DNA of 64,000 nt, from assembly GCF_002079305.1 (NCBI RefSeq), contig NZ_CP015039.1, forward strand, positions 1,633,501-1,697,500, in the 5' to 3' direction. The position numbers and the translations under genes were made by a program. The DNA comes from Rhodovulum sp. P5. GTDB taxonomy: Bacteria; Pseudomonadota; Alphaproteobacteria; Rhodobacterales; Rhodobacteraceae. The notes under the pieces were generated by a model, which was given only the letters and a program-made list of their open reading frames with translations, made no database searches and was not told where the DNA came from. This document shows positions 25,809 through 60,946 of this stretch, in pieces; within the stretch, counting starts at the first letter, position 1; each line of letters begins with the position of its first letter.

Positions 25809-27233
25809 TCAGTCCGCCCGAACCTCGGCCGGGGTGGCCGTGTCTTCCACCGGCTCGCCGTTGCGCCACATGCCCTCGCGCACCGCACCAGAGGCATATT
25901 GCATCCTGCCCTGACCGTCGATGACACCCTTCGCGAACATACCTTCGTACCGGTCGCCGTTGGAATAGGTCGCAACGCCCGGCCCGTCGAACTTGCCGTC
26001 CTTCCAGCCACCGGTATAGGTGAAGCCGTCGGGCATGGTGATGGTCCCCTGCCCCTCACGCTCCCCGTTGACGAAGTGGCCCGAATAGACCGACCCGTCG
26101 GGATAGGTCGCGGTCCCCTCCCCGTCGCGCAGCCCGTTCTTCCACTCGCCGGTGTAAAGATAGCCGCTTTCGTGGGTCATCGTGCCAAGGCCGTCATAGG
26201 TGGCGTTCTTGAACGCGCCCTCATAGACAAGGCCGTTGAGGAACGTGGCCTTGCCCTCCCCTTCGATCACGCCGGCGGCCCAGTTGCCCTCATAGGTGGA
26301 CCCGTCGGCATAGGTGACCTTGCCCTTGCCCTCTGGCAGGTCGTCGCGGAATTCGCCGACATAGACCGCGCCATCGGGGTAGGTCAGACGCCCTTCGCCC
26401 TCGATCCGGCCAGCGACCCAGTCGCCTTCATAACGATAGCCGTCGATCCCCAGAAAGACCCCTTTGCCGTGCCGCTTGTCGTTGCGATAATCGCCCTCGT
26501 AGACATCGCCGTTGGCATAGGTGACCTTGCCGGTCCCGTGCCGTTCGCCATTGACGAATGTCCCTTCATAGGTGTCGCCATTGGGCTGGGTCAGGATGCC
26601 GAGACCGTTCATCTCGCCATCTTCCCACGTCCCGGCATAGGTCAGACCCTCGGGCGTGGTCAGCGTCCCCTGTCCTGAACGCTTGTTATCCTTCATCTCG
26701 CCTTCATAGACCCGGCCGCCGGGATAGGTGATCTTGCCCTTGCCGTCCTTGGCGCCGTCCACCCATGTTCCTTCGTAGACGTACCCGTTGGGGCTGGTCA
26801 CCACGCCGACGCCGTGATGCATGGCGTTGCGAAATTCGCCCTCGTACCGCATGCCGTTGGCATAGACCGCCACACCCTCACCGGTGATCTTGCCGTCCTG
26901 CCAGGCGCCCTCATACGTACCACCATCGGCGAATGTGATCTTGCCGCGACCGTCGGGCTTTCCGTTCGTGAACTCGCCCTCGTAGACCGACCCGTTGACC
27001 AGCCGGGCCACGCCCGTGCCCTCGATCCGGCCCTCGACCCACTGCCCGGAATACTCATATCCGTTGGGCAGGCGATAGGTGCCCTGCCCGTGCTGCTGAC
27101 CGTCCTTGAAGGTGCCCTCGTAAATCGCGCCGTCGTCATACTGGCGGGTGACGATCTCGCCATTGTCCTGCGCGGATGCCGTACCCGCCGCAATCAGCAT
27201 GGCACAAGATAATACGATCCCTGCTCTGAGCAC
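25809..27233 (-). CDS. MORN-repeat exported protein
   Basis: The 474-aa protein is almost entirely MORN repeats of 23 residues (pattern YEGxFxNGxxxGxGxxxYxxG). I count 18 complete copies and one partial copy, from QYDDGAIYEGTF to AVREGMWRNGEP. The chosen GTG start (27231-27233) follows a GGGGG site and yields a signal peptide ending ASAQDNG, so the protein is probably periplasmic or surface-exposed. A longer frame to 27338 has an ATG but hides the signal peptide. MORN arrays form extended beta structures that bind lipid or protein partners. The gene is divergent from nadE, and no partner is evident. Confidence 0.85.
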   Translation of the reverse strand: MLRAGIVLSCAMLIAAGTASAQDNGEIVTRQYDDGAIYEGTFKDGQQHGQGTYRLPNGYEYSGQWVEGRIEGTGVARLVNGSVYEGEFTNGKPDGRGKITFADGGTYEGAWQDGKITGEGVAVYANGMRYEGEFRNAMHHGVGVVTSPNGYVYEGTWVDGAKDGKGKITYPGGRVYEGEMKDNKRSGQGTLTTPEGLTYAGTWEDGEMNGLGILTQPNGDTYEGTFVNGERHGTGKVTYANGDVYEGDYRNDKRHGKGVFLGIDGYRYEGDWVAGRIEGEGRLTYPDGAVYVGEFRDDLPEGKGKVTYADGSTYEGNWAAGVIEGEGKATFLNGLVYEGAFKNATYDGLGTMTHESGYLYTGEWKNGLRDGEGTATYPDGSVYSGHFVNGEREGQGTITMPDGFTYTGGWKDGKFDGPGVATYSNGDRYEGMFAKGVIDGQGRMQYASGAVREGMWRNGEPVEDTATPAEVRAD

Positions 27234-27386
27234 CTGAGCCCCCGTCGGCCGACCTGAATGCGGTTCTTGTGAAGACGTGCCAAACCCTAGTTGACGCCTG
27301 CGGGGCTTACAACGCTTTTCACAGGTCCCGGCTTTCACTTGCCTGTCAGTCTGCTAAGACGCGGCAGAATTCAGACGGGGGCACCG

Positions 27387-29045
27387 ATGGCCGAAAGGTT
27401 TCGCCTGACACTGGCCCAGCTCAACCCCACCACGGGGGCGCTGGACGACAACGCCGACACGGCGCGCAAGGCGTGGGAGGAGGCGCGCCGCGCGGGCGCC
27501 GACATGATCGCCTTCCCCGAGATGTTCCTGACCGGCTATCAGGTGCAGGACCTCGTGATGAAACCGGCTTTCACCGCCGACGCGATGGCCCATGTCGAAC
27601 GCCTTGCCCGCGATTGCGCGCAAGGGCCCGCCCTTGGCATCGGGGCGCCCTATGCCGCGCACGGGCATCTTTATAACGCCTACTACATCTGTCAGGGCGG
27701 GCAGGTCACCGCCCGGGTGTTCAAGCACCACCTGCCCAATGACGGCGTCTTCGATGAAAAGCGCGTCTATGACAGCGGGGCGATCAACGGGCCCTACGCG
27801 GTCGGCCCGATCCGGATCGGCACCCCGATCTGCGAAGACGCATGGTTCGACGACGTGACCGAGGCGCTGGCCGAGACCGGGGCCGAAATCCTTCTGGTTC
27901 CCAACGGCTCCCCCTATCACCGGGGCAAGTTCGAACAACGCCTGTCGCTGATGGTGGCCCGCGTTGTCGAAACCGGGCTGCCGCTGGTGTATCTCAACCT
28001 CACCGGCGGGCAGGACGATCAGGTGTTCGACGGCGGCTCTTTCGTGCTGAACACCGGGGGCAAGCTGGCGCTGCAGATGCCGGTGTTCGACGAAGGGCTT
28101 GCCCATGTTGATTTCGTCCGCACGGCCGAGGGCTGGCAGGCGGAGGACGGCACGAAAGACACCCTGCCCGACGCTTGGGAGCAAGACTACCGCGTCATGG
28201 TCACCGCCCTGCAGGACTATCTGCGGAAAAGCGGGTTTTCGAAGGTACTGCTGGGCCTGTCCGGCGGGATCGACTCCGCGCTTGTGGCAACCATTGCCGC
28301 CGACGCCATCGGGCCTGAGAATGTACGCTGCGTGATGCTGCCGTCGGAATACACCTCGGCCCATTCGCTGGAGGATGCCGCCGCCGTCGCCCGCGCACTT
28401 GGCTGTCAACTGGACGAGGTGCCGATCGACGGCCCCCGCGCGGCAGTCACCCAGGCACTGGCCCCCCTCTTCGAAGGCCACGCCGCGGATATCACCGAGG
28501 AGAACATCCAGTCGCGGCTGCGCGGGCTGATCCTGATGGCGCTGTCCAACAAGTTCGGGGAAATGCTGCTGACCACCGGCAACAAGTCGGAGGTCGCAGT
28601 GGGCTATGCCACGATCTATGGCGACATGGCCGGGGGCTACAACCCGATCAAGGACCTTTACAAGACGCGCGTGTTCCAGACCTGCCGCTGGCGCAACGAC
28701 ACCCATCGCGACTGGATGATGGGTCCGGCGGGCGTGGTGATCCCGCCCCGAGTGATCGACAAGCCGCCCAGCGCGGAATTGCGCGCCGATCAGAAGGACG
28801 AGGACAGCCTGCCCCCCTATGACGTGCTGGACGCGATCCTTGAAGGACTGATCGACGACGAGAAATCGGTGGCCGACCTGGTGGCCGCCGGGTTCGACCG
28901 CGACACCGTCAAGCGTGTCGAGCACCTGATCTATATCAGCGAATACAAGCGCTTTCAGTCCGCGCCCGGCGCAAGGCTGACGAAACGCGCCTTCTGGCTC
29001 GACCGGCGTTATCCCATCGTCAACCGCTGGCGCGATCCGTCCTAG
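27387..29045 (+). CDS. nadE: Glutamine-dependent NAD+ synthetase
   Basis: The 552-aa protein makes NAD+ from nicotinic acid adenine dinucleotide, ATP and glutamine-derived ammonia. The N-terminal nitrilase-type amidotransferase domain has the triad E45 (FPEMFLTG), K113 (KHHLPNDGVFDE) and C149 (GTPICEDAW). The C-terminal synthetase domain (from about residue 270) has the ATP loop LLGLSGGIDSALVAT and TTGNKSEVAVGYATIYGD. The start MAERFRLTLAQLNPTTG was chosen over the upstream extension because it begins at the domain edge. The stop codon abuts the left end of the small inverted-repeat element. Confidence 0.96.
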   Translation: MAERFRLTLAQLNPTTGALDDNADTARKAWEEARRAGADMIAFPEMFLTGYQVQDLVMKPAFTADAMAHVERLARDCAQGPALGIGAPYAAHGHLYNAYYICQGGQVTARVFKHHLPNDGVFDEKRVYDSGAINGPYAVGPIRIGTPICEDAWFDDVTEALAETGAEILLVPNGSPYHRGKFEQRLSLMVARVVETGLPLVYLNLTGGQDDQVFDGGSFVLNTGGKLALQMPVFDEGLAHVDFVRTAEGWQAEDGTKDTLPDAWEQDYRVMVTALQDYLRKSGFSKVLLGLSGGIDSALVATIAADAIGPENVRCVMLPSEYTSAHSLEDAAAVARALGCQLDEVPIDGPRAAVTQALAPLFEGHAADITEENIQSRLRGLILMALSNKFGEMLLTTGNKSEVAVGYATIYGDMAGGYNPIKDLYKTRVFQTCRWRNDTHRDWMMGPAGVVIPPRVIDKPPSAELRADQKDEDSLPPYDVLDAILEGLIDDEKSVADLVAAGFDRDTVKRVEHLIYISEYKRFQSAPGARLTKRAFWLDRRYPIVNRWRDPS

Positions 29046-29242
29046 CAGGCTGCTGAAAAACCAGAAACCCCAGCTTCGCAAGAGAAAACCGTTCCTTGTC
29101 AGCAACGATGCCGCAAGGCAAGCAGTGCCGCGCCCGACCCTGGGTGGGCGCGGCCCGGGCTGATCGCCCGGACCAGCTTCGGGACGATGGTCCGAAAGGT
29201 TGCGACCGTCGGCGCATGTCATGTGCTTTTTCAGCAGCCTGC
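29045..29242. mobile_element. MITE-like inverted-repeat element, copy 1
   Basis: This 198-bp element is bounded by perfect 16-bp inverted repeats (29045-29060, GCAGGCTGCTGAAAAA, and its complement at 29227-29242). The ends resemble those I associate with IS1182/IS5-type elements (GGCTGCTGAAAAA). It has no credible transposase gene, so it looks non-autonomous. A related, shorter and more diverged copy lies at 58443-58605. It inserted exactly at the nadE stop. The large hairpin it could form may serve as a terminator. No clear target duplication was found. Confidence 0.75.
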
Positions 29243-29272
29243 CAGGCTTTCGCGGGCAACGGCCTGCACAAG

Positions 29273-29303
29273 AAAAAACCGCCCCGGAGATTGTCCGGGG
29301 CGG
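29273..29303 (-). terminator. Rho-independent terminator after the cytochrome gene
   Basis: On the minus strand a perfect 10-bp GC-rich stem (29279-29288 with 29294-29303, loop of 5) is followed by six T residues (complement of 29273-29278). It lies 45 bases after the cytochrome stop. Confidence 0.88.
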
Positions 29304-29348: not shown

Positions 29349-30929
29349 TCAGTTCTCTTCCGAGATCGTGTGGAGGAAGGCGGCGATGTCGCGCACTTCT
29401 TCCGGATCGCGGGCGTTGTAGGTCATGTTGCCGCGCGCCTTGGGATCGTCGAGGAATTTGCGCAGGAACTCGGTCGGGTTCTGGGCGTATTCGACGACGT
29501 TCTCTTCCGTCCAGACAAGGCCCTTCTCGCCGGCTTCCTTCATCGACTTGGAGTAGCGGAAACCTTCGATCCGACCGGCAACGGCGCCCATCGTGCCGTA
29601 CTGGTTCGGGCCAACGCGGGCCGCCTTGCCGGCCAGCGTTTCACCAGCAGGGCTGACGACGACGTGGCAGGTGGCACACTGGTTGTAGGCCTTTTCACCG
29701 GCAGCCGGATCGCCGGTGAACGCGGCGGCTACGACAGCGGCTTCTTCAGCCGGGGCTTCTTCCGCAGCAGCTTCTTCAGCCGGGGCTTCTTCCGCAGCGG
29801 CTTCTTCAGCCGGGGCTTCCTCGGCAACGGCTTCCTCAGCCGGGGCTTCTTCAGCAACGGCTTCCTCAGCCGGAGCTTCCTCGGCAGCAGCTTCTTCAGC
29901 CGGGGCTTCCTCGGCAGCGGCTTCCTCAGCCGGGGCTTCTTCAGCGGCGGCTTCCTCAGCCGGGGCTTCTTCAGCGGCAGCTTCCTCAGCCGGGGCTTCT
30001 TCCGCAGCAGCTTCTTCAGCCGGGGCTTCTTCGGCAACAGCTTCTTCAGCCGGGGCTTCTTCGGCAACAGCTTCTTCAGCCGGGGCTTCTTCAGCGGCAG
30101 CTTCCTCAGCCGGGGCTTCCTCGGCGGCAGCTTCTTCAGCCGGGGCTTCTTCCGCAGCGGCTTCCTCAGCCGGGGCTTCTTCCGCAGCAGCTTCTTCGGC
30201 CGGGGCTTCTTCGGCAACGGCTTCTTCAGCCGGGGCTTCTTCAGCGGCAGCTTCCTCAGCCGGGGCTTCTTCGGCAACGGCTTCTTCAGCGGCGGCGGCG
30301 ATTTCGCCGAACGCTTCTTCGGCGGTCGGCGCTTCGGCTTCTTCTTCGCCGGCCAGAGCGGCGGACTTGCCGGCCAGTTCGGCGGCCTTTTCAGCCAGCG
30401 CGGTGTATTCGGCGGCAAGGGCAGCGGCCTGCTCGGCCAGCGTCAGCGCGTTGGAAACGTCTTCCGGCGTGTCGACCGCGGGTGCCTCGACAGCTTCTTC
30501 GACCGGGGCTTCTTCCGCAGCGGCTTCCTCAGCCGGGGCTTCTTCAGCAGCGGCTTCTTCGGCCGGGGCTTCCTCGGCTACAGCTTCTTCAGCCGGGGCT
30601 TCTTCAGCAGCAGCTTCCTCGGCCGGGGCCTCTTCGGCGGCGGCTTCCTCGGCCGGAGCTTCTTCCGCAGCAGCTTCCTCAGCCGGGGCTTCCTCGGCGG
30701 GGGCTTCCTCGGCAACGACTTCCTCGGCCGGGGCTTCTTCGGCCGCGGCTTCTTCGGTCACCGCTTCCTCGGTGGTTGCCGCCTCGGCGACTTCCTCGGC
30801 GGGCGCCTCGATTGCCGGGGCCGGCGCGGGCTCCTCTTTGCCGCTATAGGCAACGGCGTACAACGCAATCCCGATTGCCGGCGCGGCGACGATGAGTCGA
30901 ACCAGGTTGGTGGAATTATTCTCGGCCAT
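29349..30929 (-). CDS. Membrane-anchored cytochrome c with very long Glu/Ala/Pro linker
   Basis: The 526-aa protein has one N-terminal membrane helix (about residues 9-28), a linker of some 375 residues made mostly of E, A and P, and a C-terminal class I cytochrome c domain (406-526). The heme site is CATCH at 418-422, with RVGPNQYG and a likely Met ligand in RGNMTYN. The linker has 18 exact-length 10-residue units (217-396, type [10 protein letters not shown]), a looser first block (about 51-145) and a heptad-like segment (152-194). The plan recalls anchored cytochromes cy/c552 (CycM), which carry electrons to oxidases, but those linkers are far shorter. A downstream terminator indicates a monocistronic gene. 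Confidence 0.9.
29742..30281 (-). repeat. Tandem 30-nt repeat array inside the cytochrome gene
   Basis: Eighteen consecutive 30-nt units encode the residues 217-396 repeats. Only A/V alternation in one residue and synonymous changes distinguish the units, so the DNA is nearly but not perfectly repeated. A shorter, less regular block encodes residues about 51-145 (roughly 30495-30779). Such arrays readily vary in copy number and are prone to misassembly. Confidence 0.92.
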
Positions 30930-31340
30930 CTTTCATCCTTTTCGTTCCGCTGCCACCGGACGGGACCACCCCCTCCGCGGCAGGACGTCCTCCTGCGGGT
31001 TCCCGCGGGAGCCCCTGAATGCCTCCCGCATCTGGCGGCACGGCACACCCGTTCGTGCGGGCAGACCTGTGCCGCTGACCACCACCGCGGACAATAACGT
31101 GCCTGTGATCCCTGACCAGCCCCCGATCGGCTGCCTGCGACGCTGATACGCGGGCCAGAGCCTTGCCACCCCGCCGGAAATCGATCTGCGGCGCGGTTTC
31201 GGCAAGCTCTTGCCAAACAAAGCCGCCCTAGCGCCCACCAGCAAGGCGAATCGCCGCTCCGAATCAGCCCTCGCCCAGGCCGGTGAGCGCGGATCGGTGG
31301 CTGCATTTCGGCGTACAATCCGGGCGCAGGACCACCCCGA
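30930..31340. other. 411-bp region without a credible gene
   Basis: Frames on both strands lack ribosome sites and family similarity. The region probably contains the cytochrome promoter (minus strand) and the 3' end of the acyltransferase fusion transcript. One palindrome, GGCAAGCTCTTGCC (31201-31214), was noted. Nothing else was recognised. Confidence 0.55.
31201..31214. promoter_or_regulatory. Palindrome upstream of the cytochrome gene
   Basis: GGCAAG and CTTGCC are separated by two bases. It is 270 bp upstream of the cytochrome start. It could be an operator or a short hairpin. There is no regulator next to it. Confidence 0.3.
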
Positions 31341-49549: not shown

Positions 49550-51343
49550 TCAGTCCTCGGCCTTGCGGAAGACGCCCGCAAGCGCACGTTTCAGCACCGC
49601 GCTGACCGAGGGGCGCTTGAGCTCGCGGAAGGGCAGCGGGCGACAGACCTCCATCGCGGCGATACCGACGCGGGTTGTCAGCGCGCCGTTGACCACGCCC
49701 TCACCAAAGCGGCGGGAAACACGGGCCACCACGCCGCCCCCGGCGATCGAGCCGATCATGTCGTCACCCACGGCCACCACGCCGGTGGCGACCAGATGGG
49801 TCAGCACGGATCGGGCAAGACGGATGCTGCCCAGCACCCCGCCGCGCCCGCCATAGATTTCCGCGATCCGGCGGATCATCCGCAGGTTCGCGGTCAGCGC
49901 GACCAGAAGGTCGGCCAGCGTGATCGGGACCAGCGCGGTGATGGTGGCAACGGAGCGGGCCGCGCTCTCGATCTCGCGGGTGGCGGCGGTGTCCAGCGGG
50001 GTCAGCAATTCGCGTTCGGTCAGGGCCAGCAGGGCATCGGCGTCCAGCACCTCATCCCGACGGTCGGTCAGGTTCTGCCGACCCCAACGGGTATCGTCGC
50101 GCTTGCCGTAGAAAGCCAGCAGGTGATCCAGCACCGTGCGCGCCTTGGCCAGATCGTGGGAGGCGATGGCCGCGTCCGCCTCCTTGTGCAGCGTATCCAG
50201 CCGGCGCAGGCGCCCGAACGCGGCCAGTTCTTTCAAAACGACCAGAAGAAGCGCCGCCCCGACCATCGCCACAAGCGCCAGCGCGACCGTGCCGATGATC
50301 GAACTTCGGTCCAGCAGCGAGGTCACGAAATCCCAGATCGCGACGGACAGGATGAACCCCAAAAGCGCGCTGAGGGACGACCAGAAGAACTTCGCAAGCC
50401 GCGACGGGCGGCGGGCGGCAAGGGCCATCACGGTCTGCATCGCGCGCCCCTCGGGCCGGGGGATTTCCCCGGTTTCAAGGTCGGGCACAGGCGGGGCCGT
50501 GGCCGGGGTCAGGGGTTTTTCAGGCGCCGCTTCGGTGTCGAACAGCACCGGCGCGCGGGCCGTCCGGCGCACGGGATCTGCCTGCGGCGGCGATGACATC
50601 GCCGGGCCACGCGCCATCCGCTCCCGTTCCTCTTTCTCGCGATTCATCCGCTCTCGCTCTGCATTCTCACGCTCTGCGCGCTCCCGCTCAGCCGTTTCGC
50701 GCGCCAAGCGTTCCTGTTCGGCCTTCTCACGCGCCACCCGTTCCCGGTCGGCTCTCTCGCGTTCCAACCGCGCGCGCTCGGCCTTCTCACGCGCCGCACG
50801 CTCCTGTTCCGCACGCTCACGTTCCAGACGCTCTCGTTCGGCCTTCTCGCGCGCCAGACTTTCCTGTTCGGCGCGCTCGCGTTCCACCCGTTCGCGCTCC
50901 GCCCTTTCGCGCGCCAACCGATCCTGCTCGGCTTTCTCACGGGCCGCGCGCTCCTGTTCCGCACGCTCGCGCTCCAGACGCGCCCGTTCGGCCTTCTCGC
51001 GCGCCAAGCGGTCCTGTTCGTCCTTCTCACGGGCCGCCCGTTCCCGCTCGGCCCTCTCTCGCGCGAGGCGTTCCTGTTCAGCTCTCTCGCGCTCTACCCG
51101 CTCGCGTTCGGCTTGCTCTCGCGCCAAACGCTCCTGTTCGGCGCGCTCCCGTTCCGCCCGGTCCCGATCGGCTTTTTCACGCGCCGCGCGGTCCCGTTCG
51201 GCCTGAACGCGTTCCGCCTCGTCCCGTTCCGCCTGCTCGCGCTCTGACGGTGTCCTCTCTTCCGCCGCCGGGCCTGCCTCGGCCGGCTGATCCCCGGTCT
51301 CGTCCTCTCCCCCAAGGTCGAACAGAACCGGACGGCGGATCAT
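49550..51343 (-). CDS. YcjF-like membrane protein with 10-residue-repeat helix
   Basis: The 597-aa protein begins MIRRPVLFDLGG and then holds about 21 units of exactly 10 residues (about 31-246, type ERLAREKAER), a highly charged E/R-rich stretch. The C-terminal 270 residues carry two membrane helices (KFFWSSLSALLGFILSVAIW and IIGTVALALVAMVGAALLLVVL) and the DUF697/YcjF domain (DTLHKEADAAIASHDLAKAR, LTANLRMIRRIAEIYGGRGG). Such YcjF proteins accompany YcjX, which overlaps this gene by ATGA. Known YcjF proteins are about 350 aa, so the repeat insert is unusual. Confidence 0.85.
   Translation of the reverse strand: MIRRPVLFDLGGEDETGDQPAEAGPAAEERTPSEREQAERDEAERVQAERDRAAREKADRDRAERERAEQERLAREQAERERVERERAEQERLARERAERERAAREKDEQDRLAREKAERARLERERAEQERAAREKAEQDRLARERAERERVERERAEQESLAREKAERERLERERAEQERAAREKAERARLERERADRERVAREKAEQERLARETAERERAERENAERERMNREKEERERMARGPAMSSPPQADPVRRTARAPVLFDTEAAPEKPLTPATAPPVPDLETGEIPRPEGRAMQTVMALAARRPSRLAKFFWSSLSALLGFILSVAIWDFVTSLLDRSSIIGTVALALVAMVGAALLLVVLKELAAFGRLRRLDTLHKEADAAIASHDLAKARTVLDHLLAFYGKRDDTRWGRQNLTDRRDEVLDADALLALTERELLTPLDTAATREIESAARSVATITALVPITLADLLVALTANLRMIRRIAEIYGGRGGVLGSIRLARSVLTHLVATGVVAVGDDMIGSIAGGGVVARVSRRFGEGVVNGALTTRVGIAAMEVCRPLPFRELKRPSVSAVLKRALAGVFRKAED
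50606..51253 (-). repeat. 30-nt period repeat encoding the charged helix of the YcjF-like protein
   Basis: About 21 consecutive units of 30 nt (10 codons) encode alternating Glu/Arg-rich residues. The 10-residue period differs from the 7-residue heptad, so it fits a charged single alpha helix rather than a classical coiled coil. The period equals that of the cytochrome array at 29742-30281 although the sequence is unrelated. Confidence 0.85.
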
Positions 51344-52776
51344 GTCAGGCGATCCCCGATCAGGAAGTCGGCGGCCTTGTCCAGCCGGATATGCGGCGGC
51401 CCATCGCCGGGCTTCAGCGTCAGCCGGGCCGGGGCGAAGTTCATGATGTTGTAATCGGCCTCCAGCCAGTGGTCTGCGCCCCCCCGCGCCGGTTCCAGCA
51501 AGACCGCCGGATCCTCGGGAAGTTCCCCGGGATAGAGCGCCGCCTGCCGCCCGGTCGACAACAGCCGCCCGCGCACGCAATGCAGCGTCTCTCCCTGATG
51601 CTGGCGCTCTTCCTCCACCGTGGCGCGGAGCGAGGCGATAGCCATCGCCGCGGTCTCTGCCCCGGCGAAATCCGCCCGGCGGCGCGCATCGCGCATCAAC
51701 GCCTGCATGATCGCGGTCAGCCGCGCGTGCTGGGTGTGGTGCAGGTGATCGGCCTTGGTCGCGGCGAACAGGATCCGCTCCACCCGCTTGCCGACCAGAA
51801 GCGAAGACAGCCAGGCATTGCGACCCGGCCGAAACGCCCCAAGGATTTCCGTCATCGCCCGGCGCAGATCCTCCACCGCCCGCGGCCCGGCATGGATCGC
51901 GCCCAGCGCATCCACCAGAACCACCTGCCGGTCGATCTTGGAGAAATGATCGCGGAAGAACGGTTTGACCACCTCGGATTTATAGGCCTCATACCGCCGC
52001 TCCATCTCCCGGTACAGGCTGCTACGCGGCGGCACCCGATCGGGCTTGGGCAGGGGCGCAAAGGTCAGGACGGGCGATCCCGCCAGATCGCCGGGCAAAA
52101 GGAACCGCCCCGGCGAGCAATCGGAGAACCCGGCCTCCCGCGCGCCGTTCAGATATTCGGTGAACGACCCTGCCAGCGCCTGTGCCACGGGTTCGGACAG
52201 CTCCGCCGTGATGTCGGTTTCCGACAGCACCGCGCGGAATCCTTCCGACCCGCTGCGCTCCTCCATCCGGGCAAAGGCATCGGCGGCCCATTCGTCATAA
52301 CTCTTGTCCAGCAGGGCAAGGTCCAGCAGCCATTCGCCGGGATAGTCGACGATGTCCACATGCAGGGTCCGCGGCCCCGTCACCGCGCCAAGGATGCCAC
52401 CCAGACCGCCCTGCCGCACCTTCAGCGACAACCGCAACTCCGACACCGACCGGGTCGACTCCGGCCAATGCGGATCGGTGCCCGTCAGCGCGGACAGGTG
52501 CGTTTCATAGTCGAAGCGCGGGATCGTGTTATCGGGCTGCGGCTTCAGATAGGCCGCGGCGATGGCACCGTAGGCCGCGCCCCGCAATTGCGGCATCCGC
52601 CCCCGGTCAAGGATATTCGCGACCAGCGAAGTGATGAACACCGTCTTGCCCGCGCGGGACAGGCCGGTCACGCCCAGCCGGATCACGGGTTCGAAAAATG
52701 CCTCGGACACAGAGGCCGAAATCCCCTCGACCCCGCGTGTCATGCTGTCGGCTATGTCGCCTATGCGCAATTGCAT
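51340..52776 (-). CDS. YcjX-family P-loop GTPase-like protein (DUF463)
   Basis: The 478-aa protein shows the YcjX features: Walker A GLSRAGKTVFITSL near residue 35, LHVDIVDYPGEWLLDLALL (switch/Walker B-like) and RILFAATKADHLHH (NKxD-like TKAD). These stress-linked proteins have a GTPase fold. The stop overlaps the start of the YcjF-like gene (ATGA), so both are made together. Confidence 0.9.
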   Translation of the reverse strand: MQLRIGDIADSMTRGVEGISASVSEAFFEPVIRLGVTGLSRAGKTVFITSLVANILDRGRMPQLRGAAYGAIAAAYLKPQPDNTIPRFDYETHLSALTGTDPHWPESTRSVSELRLSLKVRQGGLGGILGAVTGPRTLHVDIVDYPGEWLLDLALLDKSYDEWAADAFARMEERSGSEGFRAVLSETDITAELSEPVAQALAGSFTEYLNGAREAGFSDCSPGRFLLPGDLAGSPVLTFAPLPKPDRVPPRSSLYREMERRYEAYKSEVVKPFFRDHFSKIDRQVVLVDALGAIHAGPRAVEDLRRAMTEILGAFRPGRNAWLSSLLVGKRVERILFAATKADHLHHTQHARLTAIMQALMRDARRRADFAGAETAAMAIASLRATVEEERQHQGETLHCVRGRLLSTGRQAALYPGELPEDPAVLLEPARGGADHWLEADYNIMNFAPARLTLKPGDGPPHIRLDKAADFLIGDRLT

Positions 52777-60634: not shown

Positions 60635-60714
60635 GGCATCAGACAATGCGTGCTGCACCTGCGAATGCAAGCCCTTGCCCGAAAGCGACGCATGATCTAG
60701 CTTCCGCGGCACCC

Positions 60715-60872
60715 GTCCCGGGAGAATCCGGCCCCCGCCGGTGCCGAAGGAGCAACCGCCCCGGTAAACTCTCAGGCCTCAGGACCGCGGACGGAACTGG
60801 AACTCTGGAGAGAGGCGCATGCGGGCGTCCGCCGAAGGGATAGCGATCTCAGGCAGAAGGACAGAGGGGGCA
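60715..60872 (+). ncRNA. Tandem glycine riboswitch upstream of gcvT
   Basis: This leader shows the two-aptamer glycine riboswitch pattern. The first aptamer (about 60718-60795) has GGGAGA, GCCGAAGGAGCAA and AAACTCTCAGG. The second (about 60799-60872) has CTCTGGAGAGA, GCCGAAGGG, ATCTCAGGCA and AAGGACAGAGGGGG. It precedes gcvT by about 75 bases on the same strand. Glycine binding normally switches on expression of the cleavage operon. Boundaries are approximate. Confidence 0.9.
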
Positions 60873-60946
60873 TCGGAGTGGGCGGCCGTGTGTGCGCCCG
60901 TAATCGGTGCCGGCGGCGTGACGATCCGGCAAGTGGAAGGAACGAC

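Follow-up and report, generated by a model that had tools for sequence, protein, structure and literature searches.

A cytochrome c2m orthologue of Rhodovulum sp. P5 with a long acidic tether around a conserved, probably helical island

Judged by its sequence, a gene on contig NZ_CP015039.1 of Rhodovulum sp. P5 (assembly GCF_002079305.1) is an orthologue of the known electron carrier cytochrome c2m. The gene is located at 29349..30929 (-) of the window, which is the whole stretch of 64,000 nucleotides analysed here (positions 1,633,501 to 1,697,500 of the contig) and to which coordinates refer unless stated otherwise. Very probably, its product represents a membrane-anchored duplicate of cytochrome c2, which carries its heme domain on an acidic tether, donates electrons to the photosynthetic reaction centre and probably pairs with itself or docks on a partner through a helix within the tether. 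Since the gene encodes a known carrier, it is the tether that is of interest. Which partners an anchored cytochrome can serve is known to depend on the length of its tether, and throughout the genus Rhodovulum an acidic tether of 300-420 residues is kept, with its repeat units swapped and one probably helical island fixed. The Rhodovulum c2m proteins accordingly form a natural series, in which reach, charge and pairing of a carrier can be compared with photosynthetic electron flow.

The open reading frame is intact including its stop codon and encodes 526 amino acids (53.0 kDa). A hydrophobic stretch at residues 9-28 (30846..30905 (-)) forms the putative N-terminal membrane anchor; from the heme site we infer an N-in/C-out topology. 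The linker comprises residues 31-403, i.e., 373 amino acids with 162 alanines, 131 glutamates and 34 prolines, and carries a net charge of -130. It is composed of an N-terminal E/A/P arm with approximately nine loose decamers (residues 31-148; 30486..30839 (-)), a conserved mid-linker island (residues 149-192; 30354..30485 (-)) and a C-terminal arm of 18 decamers of the type EEA(A/V)AEEAPA (residues 215-394; 29748..30287 (-)). The c2-type heme domain (residues 404-526; 29352..29720 (-)) harbours a single CXXCH motif, CATCH (29664..29678 (-)), as well as Met502 (29424..29426 (-)), which is present in all 16 Rhodovulum copies, aligns with a methionine of the structure 1cxa and is the likely axial heme ligand. 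A cytochrome c anchored via a long E/A/P linker had been proposed in a sequence-only reading of this DNA, and the finding of anchor, 373-residue linker and heme domain in one intact frame bears this out.

In database searches, the isolated heme domain matched the Pfam family Cytochrom_C (25.5 bits; cut-off 21.3), and its best match among solved structures was the cytochrome c2 1cxa (E 9.4e-36), presumably the protein of Rhodobacter sphaeroides. Two Pfam matches of the complete protein, to Extensin_1 (59.9 bits, short of the cut-off of 105) and to HC2 (41.9 bits with a cut-off of 40, no single stretch passing), were attributed to amino acid composition. NCBIfam yielded only sub-cut-off matches for the full protein, the best being cytochrome c-550 CycA (41 bits; cut-off 240). 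A protein database queried with the heme domain for proteins of 289-920 amino acids returned five, none of which exceeded 51% identity or showed the c2m layout, and the N-terminus of R. sulfidophilum c2m found no match there, although the genomes carry the gene. The database apparently does not contain c2m, and therefore both negative results are uninformative.

Kimura and colleagues reportedly described c2m of Rhodovulum sulfidophilum in 2007 (J Biol Chem 282:6463) as a membrane-bound electron donor to the reaction centre. The protein is said to combine a c2-like heme domain with a cy-like layout and to have a deduced mass of about 50 kDa and an apparent mass of about 100 kDa on gels; phototrophic growth was reportedly abolished when c2 and c2m were both lost. 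One of the genomes compared here (G001) is R. sulfidophilum DSM 1374: the first 15 kb of a 102,180-bp contig are 100% identical to plasmid NZ_CP015420.1 (102,180 bp). Its orthologue of 504 amino acids (G001:C1:158872-160386; 49.9 kDa, 352-residue linker) fits the published c2m by species, mass and layout, not by accession. The window protein shares with R. sulfidophilum c2m an N-terminal anchor, a mass of roughly 50 kDa and a C-terminal heme domain, which is closest to c2 and contains CXXCH and the methionine; tree grouping, anchor and island link the two genes as orthologues. The proteins differ in species, in their heme domains (66% identical) and in their linker units, which are EEA(A/V)AEEAPA decamers in the window, whereas R. 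sulfidophilum c2m contains EEPAAEEPAA-like units plus a TREAITGSEEPVIGGDA insert. As R. sulfidophilum c2m is the closest described protein, not all known anchored cytochromes are short-linkered, and the earlier claim that their linkers are far shorter overlooked this case.

Other carriers are more distant. Cytochrome cy (CycY) of Rhodobacter capsulatus likewise consists of an N-terminal transmembrane helix, a flexible linker and a C-terminal class I heme domain, and connects bc1 to the reaction centre or oxidase, yet its linker measures 69 residues according to excerpts of PMC7876108, compared to 373 here. While the window protein displays the anchor-linker-heme topology of cy, its heme domain groups with c2 (in a tree that contains no cy sequence). 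The window genome harbours a separate gene for an anchored cytochrome with a short linker, cy-like as judged by eye, the heme domain of which starts at residue 68. Cytochrome c552 (CycM) of Paracoccus denitrificans is also a membrane-anchored electron carrier (PMC7876108, excerpts). Chains named c552 match the window heme domain less well than 1cxa (8ed4, E 1.2e-12; 1c7m, E 5.3e-8). One of these two chains is presumably the Paracoccus protein, whose linker we assume to be short. The nearest relative of the c2m heme domain is the soluble Rhodovulum c2 (55-63% identical), which differs by a signal-peptide-like start and has no long linker.

The comparison covered 16 Rhodovulum genomes including that of the window (G000, 4.47 Mb); G011, G014, G003 and G010 are R. 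adriaticum, R. kholense, R. euryhalinum and R. robiginosum, respectively, and G015 is Rhodovulum sp. MB263. All 16 encode c2m, in 14 cases as a complete copy; in G002 the gene is spread across two contigs, and in G010 a run of 100 N interrupts it, both breaks lying inside the repeats. The heme motif is kept in 16 of 16, and orthologues devoid of it, which would have spoken against the earlier reading, were not found. The anchor, NL(I/V)RLIVAAPA(I/L)G(I/V/L)A-like in most copies and diverged in G009 and G010, was detected in 16/16 Rhodovulum and 0/85 other genomes (E 0.01). Among 394 genomes of the family, the sole anchor match outside the genus (G105, E 0.007) lies in a 705-aa acidic frame without CXXCH and was put down to composition. 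This frame (L144, from another genus) combines a weakly similar anchor with a long acidic A/E/D stretch and possibly is another membrane-tethered acidic protein.

A tree was built from 70 heme domains, namely 16 c2m, 16 soluble Rhodovulum c2 and 38 loci of genomes other than these 16. The 32 Rhodovulum sequences all cluster together (support 100/99), and hence c2m is most simply explained as a genus-specific duplicate of c2. The tree left out L067-L081 (15 of 43 loci); L039-L042 duplicate genomes already included. The split between c2m and c2 is weak: its support is 61/81, with one group in 59% of the bootstrap trees, and the tree drawing puts the G009 soluble c2 within the c2m sequences.

At the DNA level, Tandem Repeats Finder (TRF) reported a 30-bp unit repeated 18.5 times at 29735-30290, with 89% matches. 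The earlier count of 18 decamers is correct, but the units described as exact fall into two variants, 12 of one and 6 of the other; the second, shorter block also recorded at that time corresponds to residues 54-150 with about nine looser units. The 18 array units are encoded by 13 distinct DNA units, and most differences between them are synonymous (pS 0.374, pN 0.021, ratio 0.055). This points to selection acting on the array at the protein level; on these values, the array does not look like decaying DNA.

The repeat period differs between species. It amounts to about 10 residues in the window genome, G005, G011 and the C-terminal fragment of G010, to 20 and 10 in G012, to 13 in G006-G008, to 14 in G009, to 15 in G013 and the fragment of G002, and to 5 in G001, G003, G004, G014 and G015. 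Nevertheless, a comparison of linker lengths between orthologues, as the sequence-only reading had proposed, revealed that each of the 14 complete copies has a long linker (303-422 residues, mean 356, sd 32) with a net charge of -89 to -136. As periods and units change while length and charge hold, the units have been replaced and the bulk properties kept. Five species (G001, G004, G013, G014, G015; loci L082, L085, L094, L095, L096) contain a second linker insert seen by eye, TREA(I/L/V)TGSEEP(V/L)IGGD, which is located before the island in G013 and after it in the other four.

The island between the two repeat blocks is non-repetitive and was overlooked by the sequence-only reading. Its Leu-heptad stretch (residues 164-189; 30363-30440 (-)) contains leucines at positions 164, 171, 178 and 185; a fifth, Leu192, is less constant, and some species have Ile, Met or Ala at this position. 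Leu171, 178 and 185 are kept in 16/16 Rhodovulum copies and Leu164 in 15/16 (Val in G002). A search with residues 164-189 retrieved 15/16 Rhodovulum and 0/85 other genomes, and among the 394 family genomes only two matches, both Rhodovulum. The remaining island, in G010, is diverged and occupies the same place, retaining 10/12 a/d/e positions and 4/15 others (one-sided P 0.005). By a shuffle test, the fall of all five window leucines into a single heptad register has a P of 1.5e-5. Conservation in at least 15 of 16 copies applies to 8/8 a/d positions compared to 11/19 others, a modest difference (P 0.03), and full invariance to 5/8 compared to 5/19 (P 0.09). The register and the a/d/e grouping were chosen after the sequences had been seen, and therefore these P values are guides only. 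In 14 aligned copies Leu164/171/178/185 and A168/Y175/A182/S189 are all invariant and constitute a hydrophobic a/d heptad pattern, which is no classical zipper, because the a positions are small or polar.

AlphaFold2 (single chain, 14 sequences) places a helix at residues 155-198, with block pLDDT values of 55-74 for residues 151-190, and a second helix at 203-218, and leaves both repeat arms unstructured almost throughout (pLDDT mostly 34-48). The model as a whole is poor (mean pLDDT 49), and therefore the assignment of helix and arms is supported, not proven. The six linker windows with the highest hydrophobic moment start at residues 171-203, in the island or the non-repeat stretch after it, their values being modest (0.32-0.35). 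On this view, the linker has two arms, both probably disordered, on either side of a conserved helix in which every seventh residue is a leucine.

A tentative extension is that this helix zips c2m into a dimer or oligomer with at least two anchors and at least two heme domains on acidic arms, a notion we consider possible but hardly the likelier outcome. Across the copies, the free acidic arms that carry the heme domain measure 131-217 residues. If true, the oligomer would be a multi-headed electron carrier held at the membrane, and it would explain why c2m reportedly runs near 100 kDa on gels versus 50 kDa deduced, although acidic proteins also migrate slowly. Within the parts of the literature consulted, which did not extend to the 2007 report of Kimura et al., no island or coiled coil in c2m was found, so this does not establish the feature as unpublished. 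The genus-wide comparison, the turnover of units at near-constant length and the conserved, probably helical island may go beyond that report.

Genomic context and literature indicate the photosynthetic reaction centre as first partner of c2m. In 13 of the 15 other Rhodovulum loci, c2m is arranged tail-to-tail with the RuBisCO genes cbbL and cbbS, which fits a phototrophic role. Two further genes belong to this neighbourhood, one ATPase-like and the other with a VWA match slightly below the Pfam cut-off (22.4 bits; cut-off 23.8); we take them to be cbbQ and cbbO. The intervening gap spans 75-98 bp in 11 of the 13 loci and approximately 1.1-1.2 kb in G001 and G015. The neighbourhood is missing at c2m in G009, G010 and the window genome. 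In the window genome, these genes lie about 280 kb from c2m and are followed by other genes: after cbbO (G000:C1:1943500-1953000; L139), frames resemble the hydroxyaspartate (BHAC) pathway, being by eye iminosuccinate reductase-, aldolase- and dehydratase-like. The window genome further contains two Photo_RC genes, a soluble c2 (C1:1878560) and a PufC-type gene with 3 CXXCH motifs; the latter agrees with the triheme subunit that is described as an unusual feature of R. sulfidophilum (PMC3738892).

In the reading that we favour, a duplicate of soluble c2 would have acquired a long acidic linker and, at its N-terminus, a membrane anchor that is not cleaved off, and its heme domain would be exported and loaded with heme in the periplasm. 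Anchored carriers of this family pass electrons from cytochrome bc1 to the reaction centre or an oxidase. The c2m heme would accordingly be reduced by cytochrome bc1 and deliver electrons to the photosynthetic reaction centre, probably via the bound triheme PufC and in parallel with soluble c2. The two arms, strongly negative and probably disordered, may act as a flexible tether, which would allow the carrier to sweep between complexes that do not contact each other and yet stay on the membrane, and the central Leu-heptad helix probably joins at least two chains or docks on a partner. By a scaling law, the 373 residues would roughly reach ~16 nm as an rms coil, 56 nm as a helix and 134 nm as contour length; 69 residues would yield a coil of 6 nm rms versus ~16 nm, and charge would swell such coils.

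According to excerpts of PMC7876108, cy of R. capsulatus requires its entire 69-residue linker for rapid electron transfer to the reaction centre, whereas respiration works with about 45 residues. A long tether therefore makes sense for work at the reaction centre, but as 373 residues far exceed the 69 that suffice there, simple reach does not explain the length. An unlikely alternative is that the tether mainly serves respiration (bc1 to oxidase, as for cy or c552) and that its length reflects neutral repeat drift. The short-linker cy-like protein of the same genome demonstrates that anchored carriers coexist, and the diverse periods (5, 10, 13, 14, 15 and 20/10 residues) are expected of a slippery array. 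Yet, drift alone should also give short, decayed arrays, and therefore the length and charge held despite unit replacement, together with the low pN/pS ratio of the window array, count against it.

We regard as still less probable that the tether carries the heme domain across the periplasm to electron-uptake partners at the outer membrane, as the sequence-only reading had considered; its notion of a long reach is best retained for complexes within the membrane, and the outer-membrane part found no support. The rough dimensions given above would permit such a span, c2m adjoins RuBisCO genes in most other Rhodovulum, and isolates of the genus take up extracellular electrons, for which carbon fixation acts as the sink (PMC9230146, excerpts). 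However, Pfam revealed no outer-membrane or peptidoglycan-binding family in the protein, and the cytochromes in the excerpts of PMC9230146 differ from c2m, since they carry two or five heme motifs or are of another length; c2m is therefore none of those discussed there. It is very improbable, finally, that misassembly produced the repeat length and that the real linker is short or variable. Two of the 16 assemblies do break within the array, but 14 of 16 (the window's included) contain full-length genes with similar linkers, and, besides the window's, three complete copies stem from assemblies of 2-3 contigs (G001, G013, G015).

A terminator-like hairpin with T run (29279..29303 (-)) starts 46 bp after the stop codon and comprises 10 pairs, 9 of them G-C; a terminator scan gave 2 sites in the region versus 4.2 in shuffles and by itself does not support the hairpin. 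The 5' leader (30930..31030 (-)) is conserved in sequence among the 13 of 16 copies aligned (without G002, G009 and G010) and possibly forms hairpins. Support for structure is weak: 2 of 16 consensus pairs are changed on both sides (covariation term +0.13), the single-sequence z is -1.64, with 11 of 200 shuffles as good, and no Rfam family matched at gathering score. Within 300 bp upstream, a PpsR-like TGTN12ACA site occurs in 2/14 species and an FNR-like site in 0/14, which makes no case for a shared site.

Between the NAD synthase gene and the c2m terminator lies a MITE-like element of about 206 bp (29041-29246) with 23-nt inverted ends (91% complementary). At least 31 matching stretches, itself included, occur in its own genome (40 of 60 candidates scored), and some copies have about 90 bp more in the middle; its involvement in the relocation of c2m is no more than conjecture. 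The window neighbours of c2m (MORN protein, NAD synthase, AMP-binding/acyltransferase) showed synteny at 0/15 other loci. The MORN protein, which adjoins the NAD synthase, is encoded at 25809-27338 (-) and has 13 MORN repeat matches (Pfam). Elsewhere in the window, a 676-aa frame (49550-51580 (-)) contains a long E/R/A repeat block with a 30-bp period (50554-51273) before a probable membrane domain, and adjoins a YcjX-like GTPase frame at 51340-52776 (names by eye). A tandem glycine riboswitch with two aptamers (54.6 and 39.7 bits) is located at 60709-60874, directly 5' of a 399-aa frame at 60878.
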